From a virus, in IMG/VR virus record IMGVR_UViG_3300028399_000012, positions 1-42,072 of that record: a DNA stretch of 42,072 nt, one strand, 5' to 3'. Of the stretch, positions 101 through 36,823 are shown piece after piece. Below the pieces are notes generated by a model. The model was not told where the DNA came from and did no database searches. It worked only from the letters and a program-made list of their open reading frames with translations. The first letter of the stretch is position 1; each line of letters begins with the position of its first letter. The translations under genes and the position numbers were made by a program.

Positions 101-1012
101 TTAAATTAAAACTCCTGTATCAATACATGGACTCGAGGGACTCAGATTAAAATCATAAGAATCCTCATCTACAAATAGAGGATCTAGATTTATTACACCT
201 ATTCCTGATGGTGAATTAGAAATATTGTTAAAGCAAGTATAAGAAGCCGAAGTATTTGAAATAGCAGCGGCATTACCATAAAGTATAGACCCTCCCTTAT
301 TACGAAATATGCAGTTTTTAACAATTAAAGTTGTTACATTATTTGTAGATGTTACATAAAAAAGAGAATATATTGGTTTTGTTGTTTCTTTAAAATAGAA
401 CGTAGAATTAAGTATATTCCAAGTTCCAGATGATCCCTCAGATCTCGTAGTGATTAAATGAGAGTTGTTTATAGATCCCGCTTCTTTGAAATCTACGAAT
501 AGACATTTGTCTATCGTAAGATCCAAAATATATTCGGAAGTATTTGTATTAACGCCGATTAACGCTTCTGCATTGTAAGAATTATCTACTGTTATAGTTA
601 TGTTTTGAAACATGCAATTTAATAAATTAATGGTATACGTGCCTTTTCCAGGATTATATAAACCTACAGCAAACAAATTATGATTCCCAGTAGATCCTTC
701 TGTGATAATATTCTCAAATTTTACCCCGTCGAACGTCATTGATTTAGGGGCACCAAACCTGAAGTGCATAAAGTTATTATTTCCGTCGATTATAGCATGC
801 CAAATCCCATTTGATGGGGGGTTTTGTGACCTAAATGTAAGATCCTTAGAATAAGGGTCTATATTTTCTCCACTATATGTTCCATCCATTAGAATAATTG
901 TGTCGCCATCTGCGGCACTACTATAGGCTTTATTTAGAGTTTTCCATGGATTTGTTTGCGAACCATCACCGTTAGTATCATCACCTGTAGGACTTATATA
1001 CCAAGTAGCCAT
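101..1012 (-). CDS. Right-handed beta-helix tail fibre/spike protein
   Basis: The 303 residues start WYISPTGDDTNGDGS and PWKTLNKAYSSAADGDTIIL, the usual N-terminal cap of pectate-lyase-like (DUF1565-type) proteins. Asn- and Ile-rich short beta-coils follow through most of the chain (residues about 40-270), and the end SPCIDTG is typical of these proteins. In phages such proteins form trimeric receptor-binding or polysaccharide-degrading spikes; catalytic residues cannot be assigned here. The start overlaps the stop of the upstream fibre gene as TGATG, so translation is probably coupled. There is no signal peptide, unlike the other beta-helix protein at 7113-8981. A second gene with the identical N-terminus follows. 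Confidence 0.8.
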   Translation of the reverse strand: MATWYISPTGDDTNGDGSQTNPWKTLNKAYSSAADGDTIILMDGTYSGENIDPYSKDLTFRSQNPPSNGIWHAIIDGNNNFMHFRFGAPKSMTFDGVKFENIITEGSTGNHNLFAVGLYNPGKGTYTINLLNCMFQNITITVDNSYNAEALIGVNTNTSEYILDLTIDKCLFVDFKEAGSINNSHLITTRSEGSSGTWNILNSTFYFKETTKPIYSLFYVTSTNNVTTLIVKNCIFRNKGGSILYGNAAAISNTSASYTCFNNISNSPSGIGVINLDPLFVDEDSYDFNLSPSSPCIDTGVLI

Positions 1013-2011: not shown

Positions 2012-4546
2012 TCATCTCCTCTTTAATGCTCTGCCAGCCAATTCCAGAAAATCTATTTCAGTATCGGCATTTGTAGATGCTTGCGTAGTCAATTCAATCT
2101 GAATTCTATCGCTCTCAAACGAAACAGGTACATCAATATGCTTTTCCTCTGTTGTCGGAAGAAGATAAATAGTTTCCCTTGGTTGAACCGATGATTTCTC
2201 CACATCATACAATTTTACTGTAATACTATCACTGGATTTATAGCTTGCACGGAAACGCCTTGGTCTTATTCTGGAACTATCGATATGCCCAGATTTCCAC
2301 AGCAGCGATGTTGAATTGGTCTGACTATCAGAATCGATTTCATAGATAGATGAACTCGTTGCTCCAAATAATTCATTATCCGGCGTATTAGCAAAATAAA
2401 CCCATGTCACACCATCGTTTGCCGTCTTCCAGTTTTTATATATTGTATCGAAAATATATGTTGTCCTGGAAACATAAATATAAAACTGTCTTCTTGTCAT
2501 GTTAACGGCCGTTATAGCGTTTTGTCTGTTGCTTAAGCTGATATTCTGCCAATCCTTTTTTATAGGAATACCAATATCAATAACCTCTGAACCGTTGAAG
2601 GCATAAATAGAGTCTTTGCTGCAAAAGTATACAATATTTTCAATAACTTGCACTCCTCTCTGTGATATAAGCCCCTTCTTCTGAAAATGTTCCTTTATGA
2701 AGCTGTTTTGTCCATCCAGTGAAACAATAGCAAAAGCATTCTCTCCAAACACAATAAGAAAATTCAAATAAGGCACGATGGACTGAATATCATAGATACC
2801 TACTTCTCTAAAGCGGAGCCACAAAGAAATAGGCAATACAGCTGGCATGAGATTGTTCCCAACAAGAGCTCCAGATTGCGGAGATATAAAAATCGTATCA
2901 TCATATTTTTTATCGGCATATACAGGGCCAACAGCCCAATTGCCCGTAGTACCGTCAGCAAATTTACCGTTTGCTCCTGTTTTCTGTATGCTAAACCCCG
3001 CATTAAGCGTTCGTTCAAGCTGTTGAGCTATGGCCCACTCTCTACCAGTAATTCTTTCCGTTCTGGTATAAGACACTGTCCCCGACCAGCCAGAATCGAT
3101 ATCGATCTCTTTAACCTGATAAAATGGAGTCGTCAGCTTTATCTTTCCTGCTGAATTGGGAAGCCCCATAGCCATATAAAGGAGTATTTTTTTTATCCTC
3201 CTATTAAATATCGATGTTTCTTTTGCCGTCGGGAACGTCTCCGAATATTCATCCTGTCTGAGATAAGCATTTTCAGGATAAACACTGAATGCCACATCTA
3301 CAGAATTATCCGTTCCCGTTAGTTGCGTCGCGGTTGCAGTGAAATCACTGCTTTCATCAAAGTATAAATTTGTTTCCTGAAAGCCGTCCAACAATCCAGT
3401 CACAAACCACACCGCATGTGTCTGCACACCGGCTATATAAGGCAAACCGTCTGATTCTCCGGTATTTACTGTAAAAGCTGTAGGATCATCAAGCCAGTCA
3501 GGGTTATTGCCATCCGCTCTCATTAGCGGGAACGGCGGCAAATGATCAAAGTGAAACCCAAGATAATCCCAATTAGAATCATTAAAATAGCCCTGTGGTG
3601 TTGTCGCATCTTTACCAATAAACCCAAGCCAGAGGTCAGGACCGTCATCAACCGAATGATTATGCCCTGTATAAATATATACATGTTGCCCAACCGTCTT
3701 AAAAACAGGCAAATCATCTACTTTATAATGAGGATTGGGCGTAGCATTACCAGACACGGGTATAATCGATTCCCTAAAAACAGGAAACCTAAATAAAATC
3801 ACATTTTCTCCGGTCGCACCTGCGAATGTCGTCCCTCTAATCGTAACCTCCGCCGTGCTGCCTTTATAATCCAGTACATATCCGTTTAATGAATTTTCCA
3901 GATTAACGGCAAACCATTTGTTGTAGTAATCATCAAGATTACTAACATCTGCTGTATTCAACGTAAAGACAACCGACGATGTTATAGATTGGATTTTAGA
4001 CGAAACAAATTCCGTCAATTCCTGAAAAGCGCTGATAGCCTGCCATGTCACCGTACCGTCCGTTACCGTATTTCCTATCGTTGTCGGCCAGGACGGTTCT
4101 GACGATCCGCTGTTTCCTGCCGTTTTGCAGTAGTAAGCAAGCCCTGTTTCGTTGCCTATAGTGGGCATAACAATATCACCCACAGAATATGATGTTGATG
4201 CCTGCCAGACCGTATCTGTCCACTTGGCATTCTGGTAAAACGGATAAAGATAGAATCTATCCCGTCCTCCATTATCTCCAAATAAAATAATCAAATCTTT
4301 CTGTGACGGAATTGTTACCCGCCAGACATGAAAAGCTTCCAGTGTCAGTCCAGAAGGTAGTGTAGGAATGGGCCTGCCGTTAAGTTTTGCAGCACCGTAA
4401 CCTCTGGATTTAAGCAATCTGCCAAGCTCATCAAAGCGGCAGTTTTCCGCCTTAACCGCTCTACCGAGTTCAAGATCAGTAGGCGAATACGTTGTATTTA
4501 AACCCCGATCAAAGCGCTCTATTTTTATGGATTCAAAATTACCCAT
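2012..4546 (-). CDS. Large beta-rich tail protein (nozzle / stabilization protein-like)
   Basis: The 844 residues open with a motif typical of phage tail-tube-end or P22 gp10-like stabilization proteins (RFDRGLNTTYSP, then ENCRFDELGRLLKSRGY, residues 11-50). Residues 114-172 form a small Trp/Cys module (YSVGDIV ... AGNSGSSEPSWPTT ... TDGTVTWQA) often inserted in phage structural proteins and perhaps carbohydrate-binding. The last third has propeller-like blades, for example VYFCSKDSIYAFNGSEV and TYIFDTIYKNWKT. With an SU10-like adaptor and P22-like portal upstream and no tape measure, it is best read as the tail nozzle or hub. The start directly abuts the upstream stop (TAAATG). Exact orthology is not established. 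Confidence 0.7.
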   Translation of the reverse strand: MGNFESIKIERFDRGLNTTYSPTDLELGRAVKAENCRFDELGRLLKSRGYGAAKLNGRPIPTLPSGLTLEAFHVWRVTIPSQKDLIILFGDNGGRDRFYLYPFYQNAKWTDTVWQASTSYSVGDIVMPTIGNETGLAYYCKTAGNSGSSEPSWPTTIGNTVTDGTVTWQAISAFQELTEFVSSKIQSITSSVVFTLNTADVSNLDDYYNKWFAVNLENSLNGYVLDYKGSTAEVTIRGTTFAGATGENVILFRFPVFRESIIPVSGNATPNPHYKVDDLPVFKTVGQHVYIYTGHNHSVDDGPDLWLGFIGKDATTPQGYFNDSNWDYLGFHFDHLPPFPLMRADGNNPDWLDDPTAFTVNTGESDGLPYIAGVQTHAVWFVTGLLDGFQETNLYFDESSDFTATATQLTGTDNSVDVAFSVYPENAYLRQDEYSETFPTAKETSIFNRRIKKILLYMAMGLPNSAGKIKLTTPFYQVKEIDIDSGWSGTVSYTRTERITGREWAIAQQLERTLNAGFSIQKTGANGKFADGTTGNWAVGPVYADKKYDDTIFISPQSGALVGNNLMPAVLPISLWLRFREVGIYDIQSIVPYLNFLIVFGENAFAIVSLDGQNSFIKEHFQKKGLISQRGVQVIENIVYFCSKDSIYAFNGSEVIDIGIPIKKDWQNISLSNRQNAITAVNMTRRQFYIYVSRTTYIFDTIYKNWKTANDGVTWVYFANTPDNELFGATSSSIYEIDSDSQTNSTSLLWKSGHIDSSRIRPRRFRASYKSSDSITVKLYDVEKSSVQPRETIYLLPTTEEKHIDVPVSFESDRIQIELTTQASTNADTEIDFLELAGRALKRR

Positions 4547-5134
4547 TTATCTGCTGATGATTCTGTCGTCATAAAAGCTTGCAATGATTCGCAGTGTAAC
4601 AGCAGCAGTAAGTTTGTTCCCGCTTATACCTTCTACCGTTACATAAAACCAGCTTCCAGGAGGCATATCCGCATTTGATCCCAGATAATACCACACCGGA
4701 TTTTGCGTTGTAATATCCACAGAATCAATAGCAGCATAATAACCAAAAGGAGGCGGTAAATCACTTTCGTTTTTTCTGGAGAAAAACTCGCTTTTGGCGC
4801 CGAAATAAAATTTAACCCGCAGTCCCACTGAATCGGTGGTAGCATCATTGGCATCCAACAAAAAACCCATATAAGGCCACGTTCTGTAGGCAAAAGATGT
4901 GTCCTTTGCTGTGCCTTGAATGGAAAAAAGGCTGTCGCCCGTAACTTTTGGCTTTTTGTTAATGGCACCCACCAAAAGGCCGAACCCGCTCCCAATAGAA
5001 TCCTGTTCCACTGTTGTTGTATTCTTTGTGTGGGGCTTAACAATAAACTGGGCATTGCTGTGCCTGTGATGCTGGCCGTAACTGCTGCTCCAGACCGTTA
5101 AAACTATTAAGGAGAAAATAATTCTTTTCAGCAT
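4547..5134 (-). CDS. Exported protein of unknown function in tail cluster
   Basis: The 195-residue protein has a clear Sec signal peptide (MLKRIIFSLIVLTVWSSSYG, then Q at +1), giving a mature chain that starts QHHRHSNAQ. The rest is beta-rich with a segment on particles of SLFSIQGTAKDTS type; no family is recognised. A ribosome binding site (GGGAG) lies 9 nt before the ATG. It sits between the membrane-protein trio and the nozzle-like gene. An exported product is unexpected in a virion gene block, because virions assemble in the cytoplasm. It may be a periplasmic or outer-membrane factor, or a structural protein whose N-terminus only resembles a signal. Confidence 0.65.
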   Translation of the reverse strand: MLKRIIFSLIVLTVWSSSYGQHHRHSNAQFIVKPHTKNTTTVEQDSIGSGFGLLVGAINKKPKVTGDSLFSIQGTAKDTSFAYRTWPYMGFLLDANDATTDSVGLRVKFYFGAKSEFFSRKNESDLPPPFGYYAAIDSVDITTQNPVWYYLGSNADMPPGSWFYVTVEGISGNKLTAAVTLRIIASFYDDRIISR

Positions 5135-5139
5135 GTCCT

Positions 5140-5448
5140 TTACTCCCAGCGGTATCGTTTAAGTTTCTTGTAAACATAGATTCCAATCAATAAACCAATG
5201 AGAATAGAAACTGGAAAACTACTTTCTTTATTGGTAAAATAGAAGTCTTCTTTCAACTCTTTTGGGCTGTCGATCCCTTCATCAGTATAAATAGAAAACA
5301 CAGTAAATGTAATGGAAATACTATCGGGATCAGTACTATCAACTTCGTAATAAACTTTATAGCCATTGGTAACATTGCTTCTTTCGATTGGTACTTGTGC
5401 GGCGACAAGCTGCATAACAATTAGAAGCAAAAACCCGAATACAGACAT
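5140..5448 (-). CDS. Small bitopic membrane protein (lysis-module candidate)
   Basis: The 102 residues show an N-terminal signal (MSVFGFLLLIVMQLVAA, Q at +1), a short beta-like ectodomain (about residues 20-75) and a C-terminal membrane helix (SILIGLLIGIYVY) followed by a basic tail KKLKRYRWE. This topology resembles a unimolecular spanin, but the lipobox cysteine of u-spanins is missing. The start overlaps the upstream stop as TAATG and has a very strong ribosome binding site (GAGGAGGGAATA before ATG). It is grouped with two other membrane proteins, so a role in lysis or envelope disruption is plausible but unproven. Confidence 0.6.
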   Translation of the reverse strand: MSVFGFLLLIVMQLVAAQVPIERSNVTNGYKVYYEVDSTDPDSISITFTVFSIYTDEGIDSPKELKEDFYFTNKESSFPVSILIGLLIGIYVYKKLKRYRWE

Positions 5449-5840
5449 TATTCCCTCCTCTCTCCGTTTATGGCTATTTTTTCCAGGATACTTGTATGGT
5501 GGCCGAGAACAGTTCTGATTTCTGTCAGTACCCGTAAGTTTCCTTCATTAAGAGTAATCAGCTTTTCTATGGATTTGTTGGTATTTTCTGTTCCAAAACC
5601 AAAGCTCTCTGGAGCTTCGTGCATCTGAACAAGCCTTTGTGACAGCTTATGAACTTCTTTAATTTTTTCGTCTACTTTTTCTATTTTTTCCTCATGAATG
5701 GATAACTTGTCAGTGATGGCTTCCATTGTTTTGGCCATACGGATCATATTTTTCACATACCACGACAGCGCAAAACCGATAACGGATATCGCAGCCCACT
5801 GTACAATTCCTTGATCCAGAATAATCTGACTCTGAAACAT
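5448..5840 (-). CDS. Membrane-anchored coiled-coil protein (holin or inner-membrane spanin-like)
   Basis: This is a 130-residue protein with one membrane helix near the N-terminus (WAAISVIGFALSWYV, residues 15-29) and a long heptad-rich region (about 36-80, and again 88-125). Topology of one helix plus coiled coil is shared by some holins and by inner-membrane spanin subunits. It is coupled to the 102-residue membrane protein downstream and lies next to a three-helix membrane protein upstream. No endolysin is seen nearby, so the lysis assignment rests only on topology and clustering. Confidence 0.55.
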   Translation of the reverse strand: MFQSQIILDQGIVQWAAISVIGFALSWYVKNMIRMAKTMEAITDKLSIHEEKIEKVDEKIKEVHKLSQRLVQMHEAPESFGFGTENTNKSIEKLITLNEGNLRVLTEIRTVLGHHTSILEKIAINGERRE

Positions 5841-5861
5841 AAGATGCAGCCCTCGGTTGAA

Positions 5862-6278
5862 TTATCTGAGTGGTTTATCGGAACCATAGAACCAGTCTAT
5901 ATTAGCCGAAACATAATCATACGTAATCGTAAAAAGAAGATAGAAAACCAGAGCGCCTACTATAATTCCAGCAAGACCCCATACGAGTTTTTCAAATTTT
6001 CCTTCCGGAATTTTGTCATTTTTCCAATAATGTCTAAAAATAACAAGATAAGTAATGCTTGCTGGTATATCTCTCGTCAGCCAGAAGAGAACATGAAGCG
6101 CCAGCCAGCCTACAAAAGGCTTTCTGTTAACAAGGGCATTATTCGCCGCATCCCACACAAAGAACCACGACCACCACAAAAGCCATGCAAAGTATATGGT
6201 AAGATATGTGCGGCCACGTTTAAACAGCGAACCAATAGACGTTTCGATTGACTGAAATAGTTTATTCACTGACTCCAA
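5862..6278 (-). CDS. Multi-helix membrane protein (holin candidate)
   Basis: The 138 residues contain about four hydrophobic segments: TIYFAWLLWWSWFFVW, WLALHVLFWL, ITYLVIFRHYW and VWGLAGIIVGALVFYLLFTI. Charged termini flank them. This fits a class I-like holin or another phage membrane protein. The start is uncertain: TTG at 6278 gives this length, and a GTG at 6269 lies only 3 nt after a GGAG. It heads the membrane trio 6278-5140. Confidence 0.5.
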   Translation of the reverse strand: MESVNKLFQSIETSIGSLFKRGRTYLTIYFAWLLWWSWFFVWDAANNALVNRKPFVGWLALHVLFWLTRDIPASITYLVIFRHYWKNDKIPEGKFEKLVWGLAGIIVGALVFYLLFTITYDYVSANIDWFYGSDKPLR

Positions 6279-6295
6279 ACCACATTAAGGCTTAT

Positions 6296-7087
6296 CTAAT
6301 TAGATGTTTTATCTACTCTTTGAACGAGATAAAATAGCTCATCCAGTCTCACACGCATGTCACTATTATCACCAGTCAATGCAGATATAGTTATCCCAAA
6401 CAGCTCGCTTTGTGTGGTTGGTATATTAGTGGTTATTGTTGCAACACTATTTCCGTCAATAAAAAACTTTGCCTCTTTATCGTCATAGACTATTTCAAAC
6501 CAATGCCACTTCAAATGATCAGACACTCCAGTATCAACAGACGTGACTGATCCACCTTTTGACGTTTTTACAAACCAATTTGTTTGTGCGTTATTTGTTC
6601 TGTTATCCATCTCAAACCAGAGCCCATCAGTTATGGCGCCGCTCGGCGATGTAGCATCCCCCAAACCTATTCTAACGAAATCACTATCAGGAGCACTTGC
6701 AACCATTGCTCTAACCGCAAATACTTGTTTTATTCCCAAATTCCCTAGAGCTTCGTACTGAGTTCTTACTATTGAGCCCCCTCCAGACGTTGTGCCTGTT
6801 ATCAACAATACTACTCCAACAGCATTAGCATCCAGGTATGACCAAACGGAAAACAAGCCCCCCGATACAGATATACCTCTCAATCCATAGCCTATCTGCC
6901 CATCTACTCCCTGCCCATATATAAAAGGCTCATGTATTAATATCTGATATTTCGGATTAAAAACGTCCACGTTTTTCTTTGAGCTATATGGACCGTAAGT
7001 TGTTGCTCCCCTGAATGATTTAAATACCGTGTTTTGCGCATTAGCATTGATGCAAAACAGAAGTAATACTATCAAAAAAATTTTCAT
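6296..7087 (-). CDS. Exported concanavalin A-like lectin-domain protein
   Basis: This 263-residue protein starts with a Sec signal (MKIFLIVLLLFCINANA, Q at +1). The mature chain has the pattern of a LamG/ConA-like jelly roll: a strand with RAMVASAPDSDFVRIGLGD, then GLWFEMDNR, a WHWFEIVYDDKEAKFFIDG hairpin typical of such domains, and a final RVRLDELFYLVQRV strand. Such domains bind glycans. It has a good ribosome binding site (GGGAG, 7 nt). It forms a series with the exported proteins at 7113, 8990 and 10492. It might coat the host surface or be part of receptor recognition; which one cannot be told from sequence. Confidence 0.7.
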   Translation of the reverse strand: MKIFLIVLLLFCINANAQNTVFKSFRGATTYGPYSSKKNVDVFNPKYQILIHEPFIYGQGVDGQIGYGLRGISVSGGLFSVWSYLDANAVGVVLLITGTTSGGGSIVRTQYEALGNLGIKQVFAVRAMVASAPDSDFVRIGLGDATSPSGAITDGLWFEMDNRTNNAQTNWFVKTSKGGSVTSVDTGVSDHLKWHWFEIVYDDKEAKFFIDGNSVATITTNIPTTQSELFGITISALTGDNSDMRVRLDELFYLVQRVDKTSN

Positions 7088-7112
7088 ATTAAACTCCCTA
7101 TTTTAATATTTT

Positions 7113-8981
7113 TTACCACTGTGTCGCATAAACCGGCACATATCCGATAAGATTACCAGACTTATTATAGATAGGCAGTGCATAAGCAGTGGCTCCGCTT
7201 GGAGTATTAGTATTTGTTATTGCACTGACTCGCAAAGAATCAGTTTGTAGTGACGTCCCAACATAAGCATTGCCCATTGTTATAAAACCATTCTGTGACA
7301 CTAAAAGACCAGAAGGTGTTGCATATATAGCTGCTTGTACTCCAGATTCTCCTTCACGAAACAAAACCCTTCCATCACTTCTAATCCTTATAGATTTATA
7401 GTTTAAATCCTTTGGTTGCACATATAGATAATCCTTTGCTGAGGAACTATCTATTCGTGTAAATTTTATAACCTTGAAATCACTCGTGTCAGTAAACGTA
7501 AATCTTGCCTCATTAGAGACATTCCATTCCGAAAAATTCTCGCCAGACCCTATAAAGACATTTCCTAACATCATTACCATAGTATTGCTATCCAAAACGG
7601 AACCAAATAAACTATCAGATTCGGTTTGTCCAGAACTATTAAATGAGTTTGCTACAAAATTAACCCCAATAGAATTCGATATTTCAAATGCAGGATGATT
7701 GACAATAGCAGCAAAATCATTTTGAAAAAAAGATACATTAGACGCTTTTACTATCTTTACAATTGGTCCAGATGCTGGACTCCATGCAAACCTGCACTGG
7801 GATATACTCAAATTCTCAAGACTATCAGCATAAATAAATGGCGAAGTTGGATTGTATGCTGATCTACTGGTAGCATCACCCCATCCGTGAAATTTGCTTT
7901 GAATAATATAAAAGCCATGATCCAACCCTCCTCCATTTTCGCCAAGAATGCTTAAATGCCCTCCTCTACCGTTCTCAAAAGTGACATCAATTATTCTTAC
8001 ATTATTAGCATTATCTCCTGTACCGCTGGTTATAGTTAACCCAGCCTTGGTCGAATCTCCATCGCTTCCACAACGATCAAACCTACCATTAGCAATAAGA
8101 ATATCCCATGGCTGAACTATTCTAACTGCCGGCCCAGTAACATCTTCAAAATTGAAATCCCTAATAACAGATTTACCAAAATAGGAAGCATATATATAAG
8201 GACTGGTAAACGACGATGTGCCATCAAATCGTATTCCAGAAATCACTATTTGTTCTATCCTATTGCTCTTATCTATTCCATATAATGCAAAAACAGTATC
8301 ATCGACCGTTCTATTAAACAAAGTATTAAATTTATTCCCAATAATTGATAAACTGTCATTGTATACCCTTATCGTAGAATTAATATCATAATCCCATCCA
8401 CCCAATAAAATATTACCCTTGCCAACGATAGAATTAACTGCATACTGTACTGACGCAGAACTAGAGCTACCAAACCACTCCGGCCTTACATAGTCAACGC
8501 TGCCAGGGGCAAACTCCAAAGAATCCAGATTCCCCTCAAAAACTTGAATCGGACCCGGATCGATAAAATGTCCTTCTATACGGAACTTTCTTGTTATCTT
8601 GATCCGCCCTCCTTGCCTTACAAATAGGGATGCTGTTTTAGGGAGAGTATCTGGTGCTGTTTCGGCAATGCTTTGTCTTGATGCAACAATAACCATTGCT
8701 GTATCGGCCGCAGCCGTATCAATCGCCGCTGCCAGAGAAGCAAACGACGTTGCATCATAACCAAACTGCTTCATCGTCTGCACAATATTGTAAATATGCC
8801 GATTGTACTGATCGAACAGAACAGAATCCAAAACAGTAGCATCATCTTTTACGACTACTATCTCACCGACACTTTTTCCCCACAAATTCTTCAAATAAGT
8901 GCCTGATTGGGGATAAACATTACTGGCAATCACCAAAAATAAAATTACGGCTACAGTCTGTTTCTTATTCAGAACCATCAT
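7113..8981 (-). CDS. Exported right-handed beta-helix protein (pectin-lyase-like)
   Basis: The 622-residue protein begins with a signal peptide (about residues 4-24, ending VYP then Q). It has an oligomerisation or cap region, then the sequence YVRPEWFGSSSS (about residue 165), a motif common at the start of phage and Bacteroidota pectate-lyase-like helices. Repeating Asn/Ile/Phe coils follow from about 175 to 470, and the C-terminus (about 510-622) is beta-rich, ending YALPIYNKSGNLIGYVPVY, like an exchangeable tip. A spike-like polysaccharide binder or lyase is likely. The signal peptide is odd for a virion spike. Two adjacent ATG codons are possible starts. Confidence 0.72.
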   Translation of the reverse strand: MMVLNKKQTVAVILFLVIASNVYPQSGTYLKNLWGKSVGEIVVVKDDATVLDSVLFDQYNRHIYNIVQTMKQFGYDATSFASLAAAIDTAAADTAMVIVASRQSIAETAPDTLPKTASLFVRQGGRIKITRKFRIEGHFIDPGPIQVFEGNLDSLEFAPGSVDYVRPEWFGSSSSASVQYAVNSIVGKGNILLGGWDYDINSTIRVYNDSLSIIGNKFNTLFNRTVDDTVFALYGIDKSNRIEQIVISGIRFDGTSSFTSPYIYASYFGKSVIRDFNFEDVTGPAVRIVQPWDILIANGRFDRCGSDGDSTKAGLTITSGTGDNANNVRIIDVTFENGRGGHLSILGENGGGLDHGFYIIQSKFHGWGDATSRSAYNPTSPFIYADSLENLSISQCRFAWSPASGPIVKIVKASNVSFFQNDFAAIVNHPAFEISNSIGVNFVANSFNSSGQTESDSLFGSVLDSNTMVMMLGNVFIGSGENFSEWNVSNEARFTFTDTSDFKVIKFTRIDSSSAKDYLYVQPKDLNYKSIRIRSDGRVLFREGESGVQAAIYATPSGLLVSQNGFITMGNAYVGTSLQTDSLRVSAITNTNTPSGATAYALPIYNKSGNLIGYVPVYATQW

Positions 8982-8989
8982 AATCCCGT

Positions 8990-10492
8990 TTAATTGACAG
9001 CACTTCTCTTTAAACCACGCCGTCTATGCGGCCATTTTATTAGATTTCCGTACTGTGCTATAATGTTATCGATGTCAGCATATTCACCGTTTGTTCCCAG
9101 GGCATAAACGGTGAAGTCCATATATTCTATATTGGCAGCATTGGAGCCATCTGCCCGGAATCCAAACAGCGTTGATGTATTATTCAATGTTGTTGTGTAG
9201 TTCAACGATTTGGAATCCCCGCCGGAAGCTACAGGAACCACCACATTGACGCTGATCGTATCATTAAATGCCTGCGCTGAAATCAGCGAAGTTCCCTGTA
9301 CCTGTTCTGTTATATCTGCTGAAGCGACTTGATTAAAGGTTCCGTTAAGTCCCCCTGTATATTCCCATATACGGACGTATTGCAAAGTTCCTGTATCATG
9401 GTATCCAACCATAACAAACGAACTATCCTGCGTATTGAAACGAAGAACGAGAAAGGCACTTTCCGGAGTTGTATCACGGTTGATTGCCACCTCAATCAGA
9501 ACGTTCTTTTTGCCGGCATCGGTATAAGCAATTGTGCCAATGGCACCGCTTCCGACAGTAGCAGCTCTGATACGTCTTTGATTGTCGCCGCTCAACTCCC
9601 ATGAACCGTTTACAACATTCCATCCGTTTCCTATTTCTGGTGTTACACTTGTAAAATTTGTACCGGCAGCACCTTTACCGCTGGTATAATGAATGGGATA
9701 AAGATGAGTTAATTTATTGGACTTGCCCACAAGAATCTCATCAATGCGAACATGACCGCACTGGGAGCAGGAATTACCTGTAGAATTCAAAAGGAGAGTT
9801 AAATTGGAGAACTTTCTTTTCGATGACCCAAAAACAAACCAGTTATTGGATATTCTCTTCTTTCTCAAGAAAAACAATGCTCCGCTTGGGTACTTTGCGG
9901 AATCTTTTCCCGCATAATACGGCGCCCAGTGCTCTCCTGATGTAGTGTCTTTATGTCCGTAGGCAATAAAAATTTCAGTTGTATCATTTATTATAGGGCT
10001 GTCCAGAACGGGAAAATTTAAAAATCTCGAGGACCAATTGGAAAACTGCGGATCGTCAACAATAAAGATTGTCTTATTAATATCCCCTCCTTGAAATCCA
10101 AAACCAAGAGCTCTTAAGGAGCTATACAATCCTGTATCGGAAGCATCTGACAACCCGAAAATAATCTGCGGATTTGACGACTCACCAACTGTATTATTGG
10201 TTTGCACATTAACGAGCTTTGCATACATAAACAGCCCTGGTTGCCATGCGATGCTTTCCCTTGCTTTGAAATAGAGTTCACCGCTTGTTGTCGTGGCGGC
10301 TACAATATTATTAAACCACCCGGATTGTGTATACATCTGACCATCGAGAATCGTCACATCTAACGTATCCGATCCCTCGATCCAGAGGTTCGTCATGGGA
10401 TTGGCGTCGGTGGTGAATTTAAAATTCTCAATCTGTGCATGACCACCAACAGACCAGACCATAACGAGTATTGTAAGAATTGCGTATCTCAT
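8990..10492 (-). CDS. Exported lectin-like (LamG-type) protein
   Basis: The start is taken at the ATG at 10492, which overlaps the upstream stop as TGATG. The 500-residue protein has a signal peptide (MRYAILTILVMVWSVGGHA, Q at +1). Two beta-sandwich-like regions can be seen: an N-terminal one (about 20-260, containing GQMYTQSGWFNN and NLTLLLNSTGNSCSQCGHVRIDEILVG) and a C-terminal one (about 275-480, with NGWNVVNGSWEL and YMDFTVYALG). Both resemble jelly-roll lectin modules. The tail is basic (WPHRRRGLKRS). It is part of the run of exported proteins 11553-6296, and a surface or glycan-binding role is inferred. Confidence 0.65.
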   Translation of the reverse strand: MRYAILTILVMVWSVGGHAQIENFKFTTDANPMTNLWIEGSDTLDVTILDGQMYTQSGWFNNIVAATTTSGELYFKARESIAWQPGLFMYAKLVNVQTNNTVGESSNPQIIFGLSDASDTGLYSSLRALGFGFQGGDINKTIFIVDDPQFSNWSSRFLNFPVLDSPIINDTTEIFIAYGHKDTTSGEHWAPYYAGKDSAKYPSGALFFLRKKRISNNWFVFGSSKRKFSNLTLLLNSTGNSCSQCGHVRIDEILVGKSNKLTHLYPIHYTSGKGAAGTNFTSVTPEIGNGWNVVNGSWELSGDNQRRIRAATVGSGAIGTIAYTDAGKKNVLIEVAINRDTTPESAFLVLRFNTQDSSFVMVGYHDTGTLQYVRIWEYTGGLNGTFNQVASADITEQVQGTSLISAQAFNDTISVNVVVPVASGGDSKSLNYTTTLNNTSTLFGFRADGSNAANIEYMDFTVYALGTNGEYADIDNIIAQYGNLIKWPHRRRGLKRSAVN

Positions 10493-11553
10493 CACTTAAA
10501 ATAAAAAACAGCTCCGTGAAATATAACGTCACCAGATTCATTATTGGGAATAGAGGTATCTCTTAACAGTCGCCAGATAACCTCATCGCCAGCCGATAAA
10601 TTAGAAAAAGTTCCCGATATTTTCAGTCTCGTTGATGTATTTGCCGAAGTTCCTAAATCCACTGTATCAGCGAGTGTATTGGATAATCCGCCGCCTGTAG
10701 ATTCTCCAAACGTTCTTGCGTAATAGCTCATTTGAAAAGACACGCTGTCACCTGCCGTGCTCGTCGTAGAAACAATTACTTCTACCGAATCCATAGAAGT
10801 AAACCAATTCGGCAGCCTCATCTTTAGAAAGAGCTGTTCATTTGTTGTTCCGTCGAAAAGATAAACTTCCTCTCTCAAATCAATCGTGTCAAGATCAGCG
10901 CCATAAAGAGAAGGAGGAAACCACGCTACAGCATCATAATATGGAGCCTCGTTCCTCCTGACATATCCGTCCTTTCGGAATGTCACCATCTCCACATTAC
11001 CTGTAGCATCTTTTAGCTTCAATTGATCGTTATCGTCGTTATCGATATACAGCCCATAAACCTGAACCGGCGTTGTACCGCTCATTACCGCCAGTAGAAT
11101 CATTGGGTCTTGTGTTGTGCTGTTTCTCTGAAAATAAACCGACCCACCTTGAAAACGGAACAATTTGCTATATAAATAAAACTGTGTCCCACGAAAATCC
11201 AGAACCTCAATGACAGAATCAGCATTGGAGCCGTCAAATGTAAATGTCGAGTCCGTTGAATAACCAGGAGGCAAAACCAGAACCCAATTAGAATCCCTTG
11301 CCGCTTTTAAAGCGTTACTCAGTGAGCCGCCGTAGTCATAAGGCGTCACTCCTCTTGCAAGAATAGCCTGCGACAGAGCCAGATGCTGACCACCGATTCT
11401 CGTAATAAAGAAACTGGAGTCCATCTTTGTGCCGTGCTTCGCCGAAGCAACAGTACTCGAGTCCTTGCCGATAAACCTTCCCAGATGCCCCTGGCCGTAG
11501 CCAAATTCGCCAAAAATAAATAAAAGTAACAGAGTACAATAAACAAACTTCAT
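10492..11553 (-). CDS. Exported structural-like protein of unknown function
   Basis: The start is placed at the ATG at 11553, which overlaps the upstream stop as ATGA; a longer frame from 11586 would need a TTG and adds residues before a clean signal peptide. The 353-residue product begins MKFVYCTLLLLFIFGEFGYG followed by Q. Its middle (residues about 90-210) has a beta-solenoid or knob-like pattern with repeated short strands, and the C-terminus has a beta-sandwich pattern (NTSTRLKISGTFSNLSAGDEVIWRL in two strands). It was not assigned to a family. It is coupled at both ends to neighbours in the exported cluster. Confidence 0.65.
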   Translation of the reverse strand: MKFVYCTLLLLFIFGEFGYGQGHLGRFIGKDSSTVASAKHGTKMDSSFFITRIGGQHLALSQAILARGVTPYDYGGSLSNALKAARDSNWVLVLPPGYSTDSTFTFDGSNADSVIEVLDFRGTQFYLYSKLFRFQGGSVYFQRNSTTQDPMILLAVMSGTTPVQVYGLYIDNDDNDQLKLKDATGNVEMVTFRKDGYVRRNEAPYYDAVAWFPPSLYGADLDTIDLREEVYLFDGTTNEQLFLKMRLPNWFTSMDSVEVIVSTTSTAGDSVSFQMSYYARTFGESTGGGLSNTLADTVDLGTSANTSTRLKISGTFSNLSAGDEVIWRLLRDTSIPNNESGDVIFHGAVFYFK

Positions 11554-12164: not shown

Positions 12165-12485
12165 CTATGCAGTCTGGAACAGTTTTATCTCTTGAGGAGG
12201 GGCTAAAAAATTTCCCCAGATAAAGCTCTCACTTTTTACCCGTTCTGAAAAGATATTATTTTGCTTATCATAAGCCTCCACCTCAAAATGAAACTGTCCC
12301 GGCTTTTCAAACGGAGCCGCACAGGAAAAAGCTCCTCCTATAATCTGATCTCTTATTTGATTGGCAATTTGCACCGTTTCCGATGTTGTCTCATCAACAC
12401 GGTACACATTGAAAACAATGGCGTCATCATCAGAAGCTGGATGAGACCATGATATGAGTATGGCCTTTTCCTCAAAGCGTCTCAT
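12165..12485 (-). CDS. Single fibronectin III-like domain protein
   Basis: The 106 residues match an FN3-type domain: an ILISWSHPASDDDAIVFNVYR start (Trp and Tyr core), a middle strand pair, and GQFHFEVEAYDKQNNIFSE near the end, where FN3 domains usually have a Tyr-corner. Such domains decorate phage virions and bind cell surfaces weakly. The start overlaps the adaptor-like gene upstream as ATGA. No signal peptide is present. Confidence 0.6.
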   Translation of the reverse strand: MRRFEEKAILISWSHPASDDDAIVFNVYRVDETTSETVQIANQIRDQIIGGAFSCAAPFEKPGQFHFEVEAYDKQNNIFSERVKSESFIWGNFLAPPQEIKLFQTA

Positions 12486-15187: not shown

Positions 15188-15721
15188 TTAACGAGCATGG
15201 ACCACCCGATCTGGAATGGTAATATAAACTTCAAGATCACCGGTGGTCGTGCTTTTGGCGCCGTTCTCCACCACCCGTAGCCGCAGAAACGGATAGGAAC
15301 CTTTATTGGCAGAAGCCTGCTCGAAAACAGCAGCATCCGATGAAGCCCTACCGAGAGAATCAGCAGAACCCACCGTCAGCCATTCTGGAGCAGAAAAACC
15401 AGTGCCAGGTTTCACTTTCCCAGTCACCTGCCATTCCACTGTTACGCCAATGGTATCCTTCCCAGAACCGCTGGCCGGTGTAACAAACAGCGCCGAGATA
15501 TAATTATCCGGGTCGCCCCAGATGGGAATACCAGCACCGTTACTGCCTAGATGCACCACAAAAGAGTCAGCAGCCGATGTTCTGGGCAGAACAGCCTTAT
15601 ACACGACGAAGTTTTTGTACTGTGCATGCTTCTTCGCCGTTACTGTCCCCACCGCAGCTTCCGCTTCAGCAAACACAACAGCAGACAGAAGAAGCAGCAT
15701 CAGGGTTTTTACGTATTTCAT
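15188..15721 (-). CDS. Exported decoration-like protein downstream of capsid gene
   Basis: The start is set at the ATG at 15721, 8 nt after GAGGAG; a GTG three codons upstream lies against that site. The 177-residue product starts MKYVKTLMLLLLSAVVFAEA, a clear signal peptide with likely cleavage after Ala. The mature part is a beta-rich single domain (VVYKAVLPRTSAADSFVVHLGS ... GVTVEWQVTGKVKPG ... EVYITIPDRVV). Position immediately after the major capsid gene is that of decoration proteins, but an export signal contradicts cytoplasmic capsid assembly. Either it is a secreted factor or the N-terminus has another use. Confidence 0.6.
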   Translation of the reverse strand: MKYVKTLMLLLLSAVVFAEAEAAVGTVTAKKHAQYKNFVVYKAVLPRTSAADSFVVHLGSNGAGIPIWGDPDNYISALFVTPASGSGKDTIGVTVEWQVTGKVKPGTGFSAPEWLTVGSADSLGRASSDAAVFEQASANKGSYPFLRLRVVENGAKSTTTGDLEVYITIPDRVVHAR

Positions 15722-15754: not shown

Positions 15755-17026
15755 TTACGAGAAGATGAACAGACCGTGCACAGCCGGCTGGGCGGGTTCA
15801 AGAGCCGCCACTGTCCGGTAGGCATATCGTCTGACACGGATTTCATTGCGGGCCTGGGTGTTGCTCAAAAGATGCGTATCCATATTCTTACGGCCCGAAA
15901 TGAAAGGACGGTACCGCACATAGTTGTGGTCTACAGCGATCATGTAGTCTTTATAGAAGCCTTTGCCACGCAGCGACTTGTCCCAGAAAAGATTCAGCAC
16001 ACCAAACGGTGTCCTGATCTTGGTAACGTTCAAGCCAAAGACAGTGGCTTCGTTCATAACCTGAACATTGGCGCCGGCTATAAACGACCCGGAACCCATC
16101 TTCGAGAAGAACGCCAGCACACTGGAACCGCAAATAGCCAGCTTGGCGTCCGTGCCCAGCGCAAACAGTTGTTCCATGTGATCAACAAACTGGTTGTAAT
16201 CATAGGCATTATACGCCGGAGATACAACGCCTTCACCGTTCATCAGAAGAGAATCGTTGTCTTCGCAGAACGTAACGATTCCATAGGTTGTTCTCACGGT
16301 CTTGGCACCGCTGTTGATGCTCGGAAAGGTTACGGCCTTTTTGCTCAAAGCCGACAGAAGAAGGGCTCTGTTGATGCTGGCTTTGTGCTGCTTCAGGGTA
16401 TTGGCAGCCAGTCTATTCCATTCATCCGGACCAAAGATGCCTTCGGCTTCGGCCACATCGGTCATTTCCCATGCATCCTCGAAGTCTTGGCAGTAGGTTT
16501 GATTGGCCGCCAGAACAGTGTTGACAGCAGGGCTGGCCGCAGAGCCGTCACCAGCGGCAGGGCCAATAACCTGAACACGGTCATTATCCGCAATATTGTT
16601 AGGAGAAGCGCTGACCGCCTCAATATCAATCTGATTCTGGCTGTCAACATTGGTAATCAGAAACAGCGTATCTTTTGCACCGCTCTGGTGAACAACACGG
16701 CACAAAAGACCAGGCCGCAAGAATCCCACGGCATTGCCGCTTCCGTCGTCAACAGCCAAGTTGTTGATCACACCGCTGGACCATGTGCCGGCCCCGGCGG
16801 CATAGAATTGATAATTGATCCAGGGCGGATCATCCGAAAAGTGTTTCGGTTCCATAGAATCCGTCGGCTTACGGGACAGCTTCAAGAGAAACGTAAGCCA
16901 CGGAGTTTCTTGCTTTGCCAGTTCATAAACATCGGCAAAGTCGAGATTGTATTTCCTGCGATCAACCAGGAGCTGCTCAAGCCCCTTGGCGCCTGTCACA
17001 GGAGTGCCACCAGTTACGTAAGCCAT
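15755..17026 (-). CDS. Major capsid protein (HK97-fold type)
   Basis: The ATG at 17026 is chosen because GGAGG lies 8 nt upstream; the longer TTG frame would swallow that site. The 423 residues start with an N-arm (GGTPVTGAKGLEQLLVDRR) and helical region, then a central body (EWNRLAANTLKQHKASINRALLLS) and a C-terminal domain with DYMIAVDHNYVRYRPFISGRK near the end, as in P22/SU10-like capsid proteins. The gene follows scaffold and portal, the standard order. A nearly identical N-arm motif reappears at 22185 (see findings). The fold is inferred from pattern and context. Confidence 0.78.
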   Translation of the reverse strand: MAYVTGGTPVTGAKGLEQLLVDRRKYNLDFADVYELAKQETPWLTFLLKLSRKPTDSMEPKHFSDDPPWINYQFYAAGAGTWSSGVINNLAVDDGSGNAVGFLRPGLLCRVVHQSGAKDTLFLITNVDSQNQIDIEAVSASPNNIADNDRVQVIGPAAGDGSAASPAVNTVLAANQTYCQDFEDAWEMTDVAEAEGIFGPDEWNRLAANTLKQHKASINRALLLSALSKKAVTFPSINSGAKTVRTTYGIVTFCEDNDSLLMNGEGVVSPAYNAYDYNQFVDHMEQLFALGTDAKLAICGSSVLAFFSKMGSGSFIAGANVQVMNEATVFGLNVTKIRTPFGVLNLFWDKSLRGKGFYKDYMIAVDHNYVRYRPFISGRKNMDTHLLSNTQARNEIRVRRYAYRTVAALEPAQPAVHGLFIFS

Positions 17027-18727: not shown

Positions 18728-20596
18728 TCAAGGAATTGCGGTTCCATTTTGCCCGCCACCGCCGGCAGCATTGACGGCTTTAGCCAATGTTTCAAGAGCT
18801 TTAAGTTCCTGTTCACCGCCTCTCTGGCCTTTGATGATTTCCTGTGCCTGCCTGACCCGCTCGGCCATAATAGAGGCGTTGGGAAGCCCGCTGTTCTCAA
18901 TAAGCATATCAAGAATATAAACGCCGATATCAGGAATATTGCGTACAAGCTCAAGCATGGTAAGAAACGTCTGCTGCTGATTGGTCATGTCGGCATTGCT
19001 CAAGCGGAGTTCAATATCAAATTCTCCCTCCTCAAGCCTCGTCGGCCACGAGCCGATAATACCGTAGTACTGATCCAGAAGCCGTATTTCAGCAGGACTG
19101 CCGTTGACGAGAACAGCAAATTCAGGCTGTACATCGCCCTGTTCCCTCGCGACTTTCTCCAGAAAACCATACTGATCACGGGATATGCGAAAGAGCTTGT
19201 TGGCAGGAAAGAATTTTCGCATAAGGTGAAGGAGTTTGCGGTAGTGAAGTTTGATAGTGCGCTCAAAGTTATCGAGACCCGTTTGCAGACCAATAGCAGC
19301 CTGCGACCGTGCGGCATTAAACACCACACCGGAAGTGCTGGATTTCAACTGTCCCAGAAGAGTTTCTGTAATGCCGACTAAATCCTGAAGCTCTCTCATA
19401 GACATCTGATAAAGCTGCGCCATAGCCGCAACAGCACTATAGTAAGGACTGGTATCCTGAAACTTCACACCGTTAATGTCGCTAACCTTGTATGCACCGC
19501 CGACGGCACTCATGTGAGCAATATCCGTCTCCGACAGTCCCGATGTTTCATCATAAAAGATGAGCCCTTTAGGAGCTCTGCCAAAAAGGTTGCGCATATC
19601 CGACCGGTTGGCGTTGACTTCATCCTGCTGTGATCTCAATTGGTGTGTCATGGAGACATCCTGTCCCATAGCAAAGTAAGGCGAATAGCGGGTAATATCA
19701 AACATTCCTTTATCAGCAAGAAACGGATGAAGCTTATGCTCAAGAAGAAGTGTTCCCGTCAGTCTGGCAACGTAGGTGATAGGTTTTGAATCCACAAATA
19801 CGTTAAACCCAGCCTGCGCAGCTTCGGAAACATCCCGCTTTGTCCGTAAGTTCTCGAGAATCTCCCCGTCTTCCGGCCTATAAGCCCAGATAAACTTCTC
19901 ATAATTCTTATACTGAATATCCAGAACATTAACCCTGCGCCGTCCAGATACGGTACGGATAAACCGCCTATCTTTAGGGTCAATACGGGTATCAATCTGG
20001 GTTTTGATAAGTTCCCGCTCTTCAGGGGTGTCGGCAAAAATAGTGAGAACTTCCTCCTCCCACAGCCAGTTGTTTACAATAACAAAACGATGTCCGCTGT
20101 CATCGTATGTTACGGCTGTCGGGTCTTCATAAACATCGCGGGGATCGAGGGCAATCTGTTCAATTTTCGGCCATAATCCGTGAAACCTTACCCGCCAGCG
20201 GATATGAGAACGGTCGCCGATCTGGGCATTGGCGTAAAGATCACTCTGAACATAGGGAGCATTGGTTTCACTATCAATACTATGAATGGCAAGAGACAAA
20301 AGATCGGCAAGAAGCGGGTCGGAACCCCTGCCTACAGGAAAAGCACGAGCTTGCTGCCTGACCAGACGTTGATACCCCGTAAGCGCATTAAGAAAACGGA
20401 AAACCAGATTATACGTAATCAGAGGCCGCTTTTCCTGATTGGCCTTGAGGCGCTGTTCCTCCGTCCAGTGCCCGTAACCGGAATAGTAATGGAGGTTCTC
20501 ATCGACCATCTGATGATTGGCTTGTGCCGCCGTATAGGCGTCGTTGTAATAGCTCAAAAGTTTATCAATGAGCTTTTTATCCTGATCTGGTATCAC
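18728..20596 (-). CDS. Portal protein (P22-like)
   Basis: The 622-residue protein matches the P22-type portal layout: a helical N-terminus, RPLITYNLVFRFLNALTGYQRLVRQQARAFPVGRGSDP (two neighbouring stretches near residues 60-100), a central DPRDVYEDP segment, and a helical tail with LRSQQDEVNANRSDM. Twelve copies form the DNA channel and assembly initiator at one capsid vertex. The GTG start overlaps the upstream stop as GTGA and is preceded by GGGGAT. It lies between an exported gene and small head genes, and fits a podovirus packaging set with the terminase at 25467. Confidence 0.82.
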   Translation of the reverse strand: MIPDQDKKLIDKLLSYYNDAYTAAQANHQMVDENLHYYSGYGHWTEEQRLKANQEKRPLITYNLVFRFLNALTGYQRLVRQQARAFPVGRGSDPLLADLLSLAIHSIDSETNAPYVQSDLYANAQIGDRSHIRWRVRFHGLWPKIEQIALDPRDVYEDPTAVTYDDSGHRFVIVNNWLWEEEVLTIFADTPEERELIKTQIDTRIDPKDRRFIRTVSGRRRVNVLDIQYKNYEKFIWAYRPEDGEILENLRTKRDVSEAAQAGFNVFVDSKPITYVARLTGTLLLEHKLHPFLADKGMFDITRYSPYFAMGQDVSMTHQLRSQQDEVNANRSDMRNLFGRAPKGLIFYDETSGLSETDIAHMSAVGGAYKVSDINGVKFQDTSPYYSAVAAMAQLYQMSMRELQDLVGITETLLGQLKSSTSGVVFNAARSQAAIGLQTGLDNFERTIKLHYRKLLHLMRKFFPANKLFRISRDQYGFLEKVAREQGDVQPEFAVLVNGSPAEIRLLDQYYGIIGSWPTRLEEGEFDIELRLSNADMTNQQQTFLTMLELVRNIPDIGVYILDMLIENSGLPNASIMAERVRQAQEIIKGQRGGEQELKALETLAKAVNAAGGGGQNGTAIP

Positions 20597-21150
20597 GGAT
20601 AGCCATCCCCGAATAAGTAATCCACAGCTTTAACCAGAAAAGGATCAATGTTAACATTAACCCCAAAACCAATATCCCCCGTTGTAATATAGGAAAACGG
20701 CGCTATCATCTTTAAAGGGTAATAACCGATAAGATAAAGATTCATTTTTGACGACAGCGAATACGCCATGCCGGCATAAAAAAGAGGCCTTGATGGTTTT
20801 CTTTCGTAGATTTTAACCTTTGCATCCCTGACCTTGATCCTACCGTTACGGTAATAGAGCTCACTTTCCCATCCATTGTTTCCTTCCCTGACAACAATAA
20901 CAGGCCTCATAACAGTCCATAGCTTGTAGAAATGAAGCCTGTAAGGTGGAACAACAGAATACACACCAGAAACAAAGGTGTTTCCGTCGTCAAGGAATGA
21001 CTTAAACCTTGCCCATCTCGAGTTAAGGGTGTCATGGATGCAAACATAAACGGTATCGTAGACGTAAATTTTGGTTGTTGTGTTGGTTTGCGAATAACCA
21101 TGGCTTACAAAAAGGGCAAGAAGAAAAATGTAAAAGACAAAAGCCCTCAA
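20593..21150 (-). CDS. Exported outer-membrane-like protein
   Basis: The 185-residue protein has a signal peptide (MRAFVFYIFLLALFVSHGYS, Q at +1), translated from a TTG that overlaps the upstream stop (TTGA) and follows an AAGGA site. The mature chain has amphipathic, aromatic-rich strands (ELYYRNGRIKVRD, RPLFYAGMAYSLSSKMNLYLIGYYP, FGVNVNIDPF) resembling a small outer-membrane barrel or lipid-facing protein. A phage product of this type could alter receptors or exclude superinfecting phage. It is placed between portal and HU-like genes, which is unusual for a surface protein. Confidence 0.58.
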   Translation of the reverse strand: MRAFVFYIFLLALFVSHGYSQTNTTTKIYVYDTVYVCIHDTLNSRWARFKSFLDDGNTFVSGVYSVVPPYRLHFYKLWTVMRPVIVVREGNNGWESELYYRNGRIKVRDAKVKIYERKPSRPLFYAGMAYSLSSKMNLYLIGYYPLKMIAPFSYITTGDIGFGVNVNIDPFLVKAVDYLFGDGYP

Positions 21151-23772: not shown

Positions 23773-25467
23773 TCATGGAATCATCCAATCTCTATCGTCT
23801 TCGTATGTAGCGTAGAATTCCTCATACCGGTCTCTTTCGGGTTGGGGTACCTTCTTTGGTGCGCGCCATACTCGCATGCAGGCAAGGTTTAAAGCATCCG
23901 CCAGGTCCGGGCTTCTTCCGATCTTTTTCTTGATTTCGGTTTTCTTTTCCACGAAGGTTCTTCCCCTGCTATCCGGATAATGAGAAGCAGCCAGAAGCTC
24001 TCTGGACAAAAGACCTTTCAAAGTATCCGGAAGCCTGGACCACTCGATTTCTTTCTTTCTGGCGAGTTCGACCGTATTGACCCACAGCTCACTGCGGCGG
24101 TTGGCGTATTTGGCCTCTCGTATGGCTCTGTTTGCTCCAGATATTAAAATAAAGCGGTGCTCTCCTTTATGCTGGGCAATGGCGTGGCCAAACATGTCTT
24201 TATCCACCTTGATGGGGATTTCATATTCCGATACTTGAGCTCTTTTGGCCCAGTATCTCGCCAGTTGCTTGGCTTTGCCGGCGGTCCATGATGCTTCCCA
24301 TCCCTGACGGAGCTCGGCATGAACCACGCTTCTTCCCCATATTACCACAATAGCCGTAAAATCCTGCCCTTGATATGCCGGGTCAATACCAATCTCCGGT
24401 ATGCCGTATCTTTTGACAAAGTTTTCAATTTCGTTTAGTGACCAGGTGCCGTCCGGCACAGGGTACGCTGTTTTTTCGCAGTAATCAATTAAAGCTGGAT
24501 TCCACAAAGCATCCGATGAACCGGAAGGCCACTGTCCCAATACCGCATAGCTGAAAAAGGGTGAGGGTCTGTACCACTGATGATCATGCTCGCATTTTCC
24601 TTCTTTGCATAAAACCGTATACCGGGGCGGCCATTCAAAATCGCCGACTTCCACCTGTGACGCCTGTATTGCCATGCACTCATTTTTGAGCTGGGTTACC
24701 ACCCATTCATAGCTTACAGCGGACGGAATAGGGGGCTCAAGCCCCTGAAGCCCGGCAATAATGTTGGGGTGCTCAAGAGCCGAAAGCCTGATTTTATGCC
24801 AGTCTTCTCTTGTATAAAGATCGTATACATAAGAAGTCGGGTCTGTAGGGTTAAAAATAATCAGCCAGCGGTGATCATCCGGATGAGAAATCATTGTGTC
24901 AGCCGCCTGAAAGAACATTCTATCCACGCCAATAGCTTCATCGAATACAATCAACAAATACCTGGGATGCCGGCCTTTAAAGGCTTCCTGATTTCTGGTC
25001 GTAAATCCCTCAGCAAACCAGCTATGCGAATATTCAAGCCTCGGAGCCTTGGGAAGAAGATTTCTTCCCTTGCGCTGCGTTCTTATTTCACGCCACAACA
25101 CGTCAGTTACGTGCTGTTCCGACGGCGCTGTGGATAATGCCATACACGACTCACCCCTATGTTCATCCGGAACATGGGTATCTACCCACCAGGATACTGC
25201 ACACGCTGCAATATGGCTTTTTCCTACCGAGTTTCCCGACATTACCATAACTTTCTGATGCGTAACAAGCGCTTTTAAAATCTCAATCTGCTTATGCCAC
25301 AGCGTTTTTATTCCGAGCACTTTCTCTGCATAACTTACTGGATCATCTTTGTACTGCTCATAAGTTCTTCTGTCTTCTATTTTAATTTTGTCGAGCTTCT
25401 CTTTGTCCCGTGTTGTCATGTTCTCCTTCAGCACACGGGCAAGCTCTCTCAAATAAGAATCATCCAT
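23773..25467 (-). CDS. Terminase large subunit (TerL)
   Basis: The 564-residue protein has an N-terminal ATPase: Walker A SGNSVGKS (residues 77-84), Walker B LLIVFDEA (171-178) and FNPTDP (205-210). The C-terminal RNase H-like nuclease has IGIDPAYQGQD (Asp362), a KVDKDM segment (Asp422/424) and SPDLADALNL (Asp521, Asp524), the pattern of phage large terminases. It cuts concatemers and pumps DNA into the procapsid through the portal. GGAG precedes ATG by 8 nt. It is the first gene of the leftward late region and shares a control region with the rightward genes. Confidence 0.9.
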   Translation of the reverse strand: MDDSYLRELARVLKENMTTRDKEKLDKIKIEDRRTYEQYKDDPVSYAEKVLGIKTLWHKQIEILKALVTHQKVMVMSGNSVGKSHIAACAVSWWVDTHVPDEHRGESCMALSTAPSEQHVTDVLWREIRTQRKGRNLLPKAPRLEYSHSWFAEGFTTRNQEAFKGRHPRYLLIVFDEAIGVDRMFFQAADTMISHPDDHRWLIIFNPTDPTSYVYDLYTREDWHKIRLSALEHPNIIAGLQGLEPPIPSAVSYEWVVTQLKNECMAIQASQVEVGDFEWPPRYTVLCKEGKCEHDHQWYRPSPFFSYAVLGQWPSGSSDALWNPALIDYCEKTAYPVPDGTWSLNEIENFVKRYGIPEIGIDPAYQGQDFTAIVVIWGRSVVHAELRQGWEASWTAGKAKQLARYWAKRAQVSEYEIPIKVDKDMFGHAIAQHKGEHRFILISGANRAIREAKYANRRSELWVNTVELARKKEIEWSRLPDTLKGLLSRELLAASHYPDSRGRTFVEKKTEIKKKIGRSPDLADALNLACMRVWRAPKKVPQPERDRYEEFYATYEDDRDWMIP

Positions 25468-36363: not shown

Positions 36364-36420
36364 AATACCTCTCTGAGTTTGGGATCAGATAAAATAAAAA
36401 AACTGGAAAAGCAAGATGAG

Positions 36421-36768: not shown

Positions 36769-36823
36769 ATAACAGGATCAGCTATTAAAATCAAGCAGAA
36801 CAACAAAACAACGGAGGAATACA

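Follow-up and report, generated by a model that had tools for sequence, protein, structure and literature searches.

A phage gene cassette of tail-spike-like and lectin-like proteins with signal peptides, possibly matured in the host periplasm and added to virions at lysis

The window considered here, a viral contig of 42,072 bp (IMG/VR record IMGVR_UViG_3300028399_000012; contig C81 of a bin that comprises 240 contigs and is 67% complete), carries at 6296-11553 four consecutive large genes whose products begin with signal peptides and which lie directly upstream of holin/spanin-like genes. Two of the four proteins have tail-lyase or lectin domains, the predicted cleavage sites are biased towards exposing glutamine, and a matching gene arrangement is found in cultured marine phages of Cellulophaga, where such proteins are recorded in virions. 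These observations suggest that tail-spike-like proteins of the phage are exported, processed in the periplasm, and joined to virions at lysis. Of the readings considered this is the most likely, and we would give it an even chance of being right.

The genes (designated by their lower coordinate; Table 1) follow one another in the order 10492, 8990, 7113, 6296, then 5862, 5448, 5140. The window therefore has what defines a Cellulophaga-type cassette, at least three large genes in a row that encode signal peptides and lead directly into the lysis genes. An initial annotation, made from the sequence, had described lectin-like and beta-helix proteins among the exported set, and the domain matches bear this out. 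Exported protein 4 matches concanavalin A-like lectin families (PF22237 SO2946-like_C, E 7.5e-10; Laminin_G_3, or LamG; and GH16). Exported protein 3 resembles, over about 220 residues, a tail-spike/pectin lyase from Geobacillus virus E2 (PDB 7chu, titled 'Putative pectin lyase', E 3.9e-6; the viral protein 'putative pectin lyase', E 1e-3), and the match to 7chu is sufficient to call it a homologue of a known phage beta-helix lyase. Only the beta-helix part matches, however; the signal peptide and the first ~175 residues lie outside. A canonical tail spike has an N-terminal virion-anchoring domain and assembles in the cytoplasm. In protein 3 the signal peptide occupies the place of the anchoring domain, and so we call the protein tail-spike-like rather than a canonical tail spike. 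The other two are less readily classified. Protein 1 has no match in Pfam, PHROG or PDB, and a tail-spike-like motif was seen by eye (VTPYDYGGSLSNALKAARD...VLPPG); possibly it is a truncated spike. Protein 2 has no family match, and a tblastn search against phages gave nothing. AlphaFold models made without an alignment were unusable for proteins 2 (pLDDT 33) and 3 (pLDDT 40).

Table 1. Late genes of the window discussed in the text, with predicted cleavage sites (↓) and the main evidence for each assignment
Product	Position	Strand	Evidence
Exported protein 1 (353 aa)	10492..11553	-	MKFVYCTLLLLFIFGEFGYG↓Q (GYG↓Q); signal score 4.3-4.6; ATG at 11553
Exported protein 2 (500 aa)	8990..10492	-	MRYAILTILVMVWSVGGHA↓Q (GHA↓Q); signal score 5.8
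Exported protein 3 (622 aa), right-handed beta-helix, tail-spike/pectin-lyase-like	7113..8981	-	VIASNVYP↓Q; signal score 6.8
Exported protein 4 (263 aa), concanavalin A-like lectin	6296..7087	-	MKIFLIVLLLFCINANA↓Q (ANA↓Q); signal score 8.0
Holin-like membrane protein, no signal peptide	5862..6278	-	Transmembrane-like stretch 95-123; position
Holin/spanin-like protein	5448..5840	-	Hydrophobic N-terminus, then coiled coil by eye
Candidate spanin-like lysis protein	5140..5448	-	VAA↓Q signal; C-terminal transmembrane-like stretch, residues 78-96
Exported small protein (195 aa)	4547..5134	-	SYG↓Q; signal score 6.4
Exported small protein, downstream of major capsid gene	15188..15721	-	AEA↓A, not Q; signal score 6.2
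Exported small protein, overlaps start of portal gene	20593..21150	-	GYS↓Q; signal score 4.6-5.3
Virion/tail protein, no signal peptide (contrast)	2012..4546	-	phrog_511 internal virion protein E 1e-9; phrog_20658 E 2e-12
Beta-helix-like protein (DUF1565), no signal peptide (contrast)	101..1012	-	PF07602 E 3.8e-4; phrog_4577 tail E 0.0018
Two SU10-type adaptors	13360-14028, 12482-13360	-	
Major capsid protein	15755..17026	-	phrog_1328 E 4e-15
Portal protein	18728..20596	-	phrog_156 E 4e-57; 43% identity with L253 portal
Terminase large subunit	23773..25467	-	phrog_2 E 8e-29; 40% to L253

Signal peptides were scored by a script that considers the charge of the n-region, the hydrophobic core (h-region), and the residues at -3 and -1 (c-region). 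The eight signal-peptide open reading frames (ORFs) of the initial annotation are all present on the - strand where it placed them, with scores of 4.3-8.0, and none of the other 22 late genes scores 4 or higher. Its statement that most expose Gln at +1 stands for six of them (4547, 5140, 6296, 8990, 10492 and 20593), in which Gln follows Ala, Gly or Ser. It must be qualified for 7113, where Pro at -1 makes a poor site for signal peptidase I and the position of the cut is uncertain, and for 15188, where the residue at +1 is Ala. The signal of the Q-rule (Gln at +1 after a small residue) is thus found in 6/8 by inspection and in 5/8 under a uniform automatic rule. For comparison, 2157 ORFs were drawn from 167 related viral and phage loci. 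Signal peptides begin 8/30 late genes of the window but only 67/2157 control ORFs (3%; Fisher p 4e-6), and Q-type signals 6/30 but only 8/2157 (p 1e-8), the p-values being approximate since the control set includes some spurious ORFs. Among control ORFs of at least 250 aa in viral contigs, 7/805 have signal peptides. Cys is scarce in the exported proteins (5/2221 residues vs 26/4578, p 0.055), which is suggestive only.

The initial annotation called for a search for the same arrangement in other phages. Signal peptides are rare in the 167 related loci, as just noted, but phages of Cellulophaga do carry the cassette: in three families, 3-5 consecutive genes encoding tail lyases or fibres with signal peptides precede the lysis genes. 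In phi18:3 the run consists of three large genes, gp085-087, with Q-type signals (SFGYS↓Q, SGVSA↓Q and IGLNA↓Q); holin-like genes and an endolysin come next, and the records list all three proteins from tandem mass spectrometry (MS/MS) of virions. The signal-peptide genes gp091-094 of phi10:1 and gp101-104 of phi19:1 also lie just before lysis genes and are annotated from virion MS/MS; the cassette of phi10:1 as a whole spans gp091-095. The three phages together have 11 signal-peptide proteins so recorded, 10 of them Q-type. The same arrangement occurs in phi46:3, phi13:2, Nekkels and Ingeline; for the last two, a single sentence of a published description (PMC8776804) notes signal peptides on the proteins with lyase domains. 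Across the Cellulophaga phage regions, 32/40 signal-peptide genes have Q at the cut site. Their N-terminal modules are 65-89% identical between many phages of the three families (about 53% for the Ingeline lyase), while the C-termini differ, and the modules are common to phages with and without a tape-measure gene. The crAss-like phage phi14:2 provides a counterpart: its g085 protein shares 32% identity with gp087 over 288 residues, and g086 has an Mtd_N domain; neither has a signal peptide, and both are virion proteins by MS/MS. Related tail domains may therefore follow a signal peptide in one phage and an ordinary virion N-terminus in another.

The window and the Cellulophaga cassettes are alike in having consecutive large Q-type tail-like proteins before holin/lysis genes, in the lyase-like character of some of them, and in a small signal-peptide lysis protein nearby. 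They differ in that there is no detectable sequence homology between them, in the absence of Shine-Dalgarno motifs from the two Cellulophaga phages compared, and in the extra signal-peptide proteins that the window has near its capsid and portal genes. Nor is the cassette universal in such hosts, since in seven other Bacteroidota phages (11b, P12024S, B40-8, crAss001, RAP44, phi12:1 and phi38:1) and in Salinibacter phage 5_4, signals are mainly on small lysis-type or unassigned proteins. Three uncultured phages (L079 12484-14304, L151 10976-12829, L185 8928-11096) each have a single large tail-fibre-like protein with a signal peptide and Ala at +1.

The mechanism we have in mind would run as follows. 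A late cassette of tail-spike-like and lectin-like proteins would use the host Sec pathway, with the signal peptide in place of an N-terminal virion-anchoring domain. Signal peptidase I would cut, exposing Gln (to become pyroglutamate in hosts that follow the Q-rule), and the proteins would fold in the periplasm. The holin/spanin genes directly downstream would then open the envelope, and the proteins could dock on emerging virions, there to serve as glycan-binding or depolymerising appendages. For the window phage we infer each of these steps, from export and cleavage through periplasmic folding to docking at lysis, as well as the glycan target.

Several considerations weigh against this account. 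In a blastp comparison (E 0.05), 2012-4546 was the only window protein to match anything, and its match was not a Cellulophaga protein; with no homology, the link rests on an analogy of anatomy. The virion MS/MS data come from Cellulophaga phages, and the MS/MS records are silent on N-terminal cleavage. N-terminal modules common to differently tailed phages fit docking to a target that is not specific to any one family. Also, a periplasmic protein would have to find the virions at lysis.

The initial annotation had left two options, export of glycan-binding proteins from the infected cell or maturation of virion proteins through the periplasm. The second is favored by the 11 virion proteins encoded at the same gene position in Cellulophaga phages, but proteins that act in trans might co-purify with virions, and this leads to the chief competitor, which we consider unlikely though by no means negligible. 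According to it, the exported proteins are not parts of the virion but accumulate in the periplasm and at lysis degrade or bind extracellular polysaccharide, freeing progeny from debris, and they appear in virion preparations because they stick to particles or by way of outer-membrane vesicles. The signal peptides, the lyase- and lectin-like domains, and the position beside lysis genes would all be expected, and a module that occurs in phages whether or not they have a tape-measure protein does not have to fit a tail at all; sharing across tail types accords equally with docking and with action in trans. It has indeed been proposed that such lyases may aid the escape of progeny from the extracellular matrix (PMC8776804). 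Against action in trans are the annotation of 11 such proteins, in three phages, from virion MS/MS, and the fact that the homologues without signals are virion tail proteins in phi14:2.

Perhaps, instead, the exported proteins bind host surface glycans, blocking superinfection and preventing the loss of progeny on debris. Phage lipoproteins that mask receptors are known, e.g., Llp of T5, and the receptor-binding-like domains of the exported proteins would suit the surface-coating role suggested by the initial annotation. This seems improbable, however, for such proteins would have to be placed at the cell surface, and no Cys follows any of the eight predicted cleavage sites, as a lipobox would require, nor do the exported proteins have a Pfam or NCBIfam match to a C-terminal sorting domain of Type IX secretion; the late position of the genes and the virion MS/MS of the Cellulophaga analogues also argue otherwise. 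Least credible is that the N-termini are unprocessed hydrophobic anchors of tail spikes assembled normally in the cytoplasm: cleavage is predicted from sequence only, the site in 7113 has Pro at -1, and that in 15188 has no Q, but such N-termini are rare in the control loci, and Gln falls exactly where signal peptidase would cut both in the window and in most of the Cellulophaga genes, which is expected only under selection for cleavage and export.

The lysis-type genes after the cassette are recognized with varying clarity. The holin-like protein 5862 has no family match. Its neighbor 5448 gives profile matches to a holin family (phrog_4898, E 0.0046), to an Rz-like spanin (phrog_739, E 0.0077), and to phrog_2990 (E 1.3e-5). 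The gene at 5140, between the holin/spanin-like and the tail genes, combines an export signal with a C-terminal transmembrane stretch, as expected of a spanin in a lysis cassette, and has the same layout as gp095 of phi18:3. Since it lacks a charged n-region, has a second transmembrane-like stretch, and neighbors holin/spanin-like genes, it is more likely a membrane or lysis protein, but because it exposes Q rather than a lipobox Cys, it is not a canonical u-spanin. The remaining small exported proteins offer few clues: 4547 has no family match, 15188 has none above the cut-off, and 20593 matches phrog_15326 (E 0.0027), a family of unknown function.

The window is a phage contig, in which terminase, portal, capsid, adaptors, and a large tail protein are recognized; late virion genes are all on the - strand and early genes on the +. 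Two tail-like proteins, 2012-4546 and 101-1012, lack signal peptides, so the phage makes both exported-type and ordinary kinds. The first ~98 bases of the window (1-98) repeat 915-1012, the start of the beta-helix gene 101-1012 on the reverse strand, and a second copy of the gene probably continues past the end of the contig. On the + strand, the block of genes is opened by 25656-26171, with an OmpR-type winged-helix DNA-binding domain (Trans_reg_C, E 1.2e-10), whose product possibly regulates the divergent late genes. Further along, 32739-33356 strongly matches Pfam Tad6, a type I Thoeris inhibitor (E 2.8e-33), and is a candidate anti-defence gene, and at 35503-38309 a DNA C5-cytosine methylase, a radical-SAM-like protein, and an overlapping cytidylyltransferase-like protein lie close together, a group that may serve DNA or nucleotide modification or NAD metabolism. 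Viral contigs yielded no close relatives of the capsid, portal, terminase, or lectin, profiles giving distant relatives only. The nearest is L253 (9104-13048; portal 43%, terminase 40%), a contig binned as Candidatus Brocadia, which ends before the region of the cassette; no capsid or tail match was found elsewhere in that genome.

The host is a separate problem. The initial annotation pointed to the Bacteroidota or the Fibrobacteres-Chlorobi-Bacteroidetes (FCB) group, and the Q-rule fits this, but two observations make it less certain. First, 63% of the late genes of the window have a Shine-Dalgarno match of at least 4, vs 0-7% in two Cellulophaga phages. Second, the bin that contains the window does not come from a Q-rule organism: only 4-6% of the exported proteins encoded in it have Q exactly at +1, under a looser automatic rule 12/76 are Q-type (vs 5/8 in the window and 32/40 in the Cellulophaga phage regions), and no M28-type glutaminyl cyclase was found in it. 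Since the phage follows the rule that its bin breaks, the contig may have been mis-binned, which is plausible given the similar GC content of sampled bin contigs (39-45%) and phage (41.6%). No 16S or rpoB match was found in the bin to give its taxonomy. High values of the Q-rule are also described outside the Bacteroidetes, e.g., 77% in Ignavibacterium album (PMC5837995), and a Q-rule host using Shine-Dalgarno sequences, such as one of the Ignavibacteria, would fit.

The textbook view is that tailed phages are put together entirely in the cytoplasm, and a search of the literature available to us found no paper proposing a periplasmic route to tailed virions. Parts of such a route have precedents. 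Sec export of phage endolysins is known (Lys44 of fOg44 and signal-arrest-release, or SAR, endolysins; PMC6116005), and these, too, are late proteins of tailed phages that use the host Sec system, but their function is enzymatic, in lysis, and they are neither virion proteins nor tail-like. In phages of Porphyromonas gingivalis ('Nixviridae'), Q-rule signal peptides are described for five genes without known function, which may act by modifying the outer membrane (PMC10367356); as in the window, phage Sec signals expose Gln, but not in tail-spike-like cassettes within a virion block. A general extracytoplasmic step in the assembly of tailed phages, in which Sec-exported spikes and lectins mature in the periplasm (with pyroglutamate where the host follows the Q-rule) and join virions only at or after lysis, as a cassette exchangeable across unrelated tails, can be put forward only tentatively. 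If it exists, receptor-binding parts would be made beyond the membrane and added at lysis, a practice recurring in unrelated phages, and this would account for the movement of such modules among differently tailed phages.

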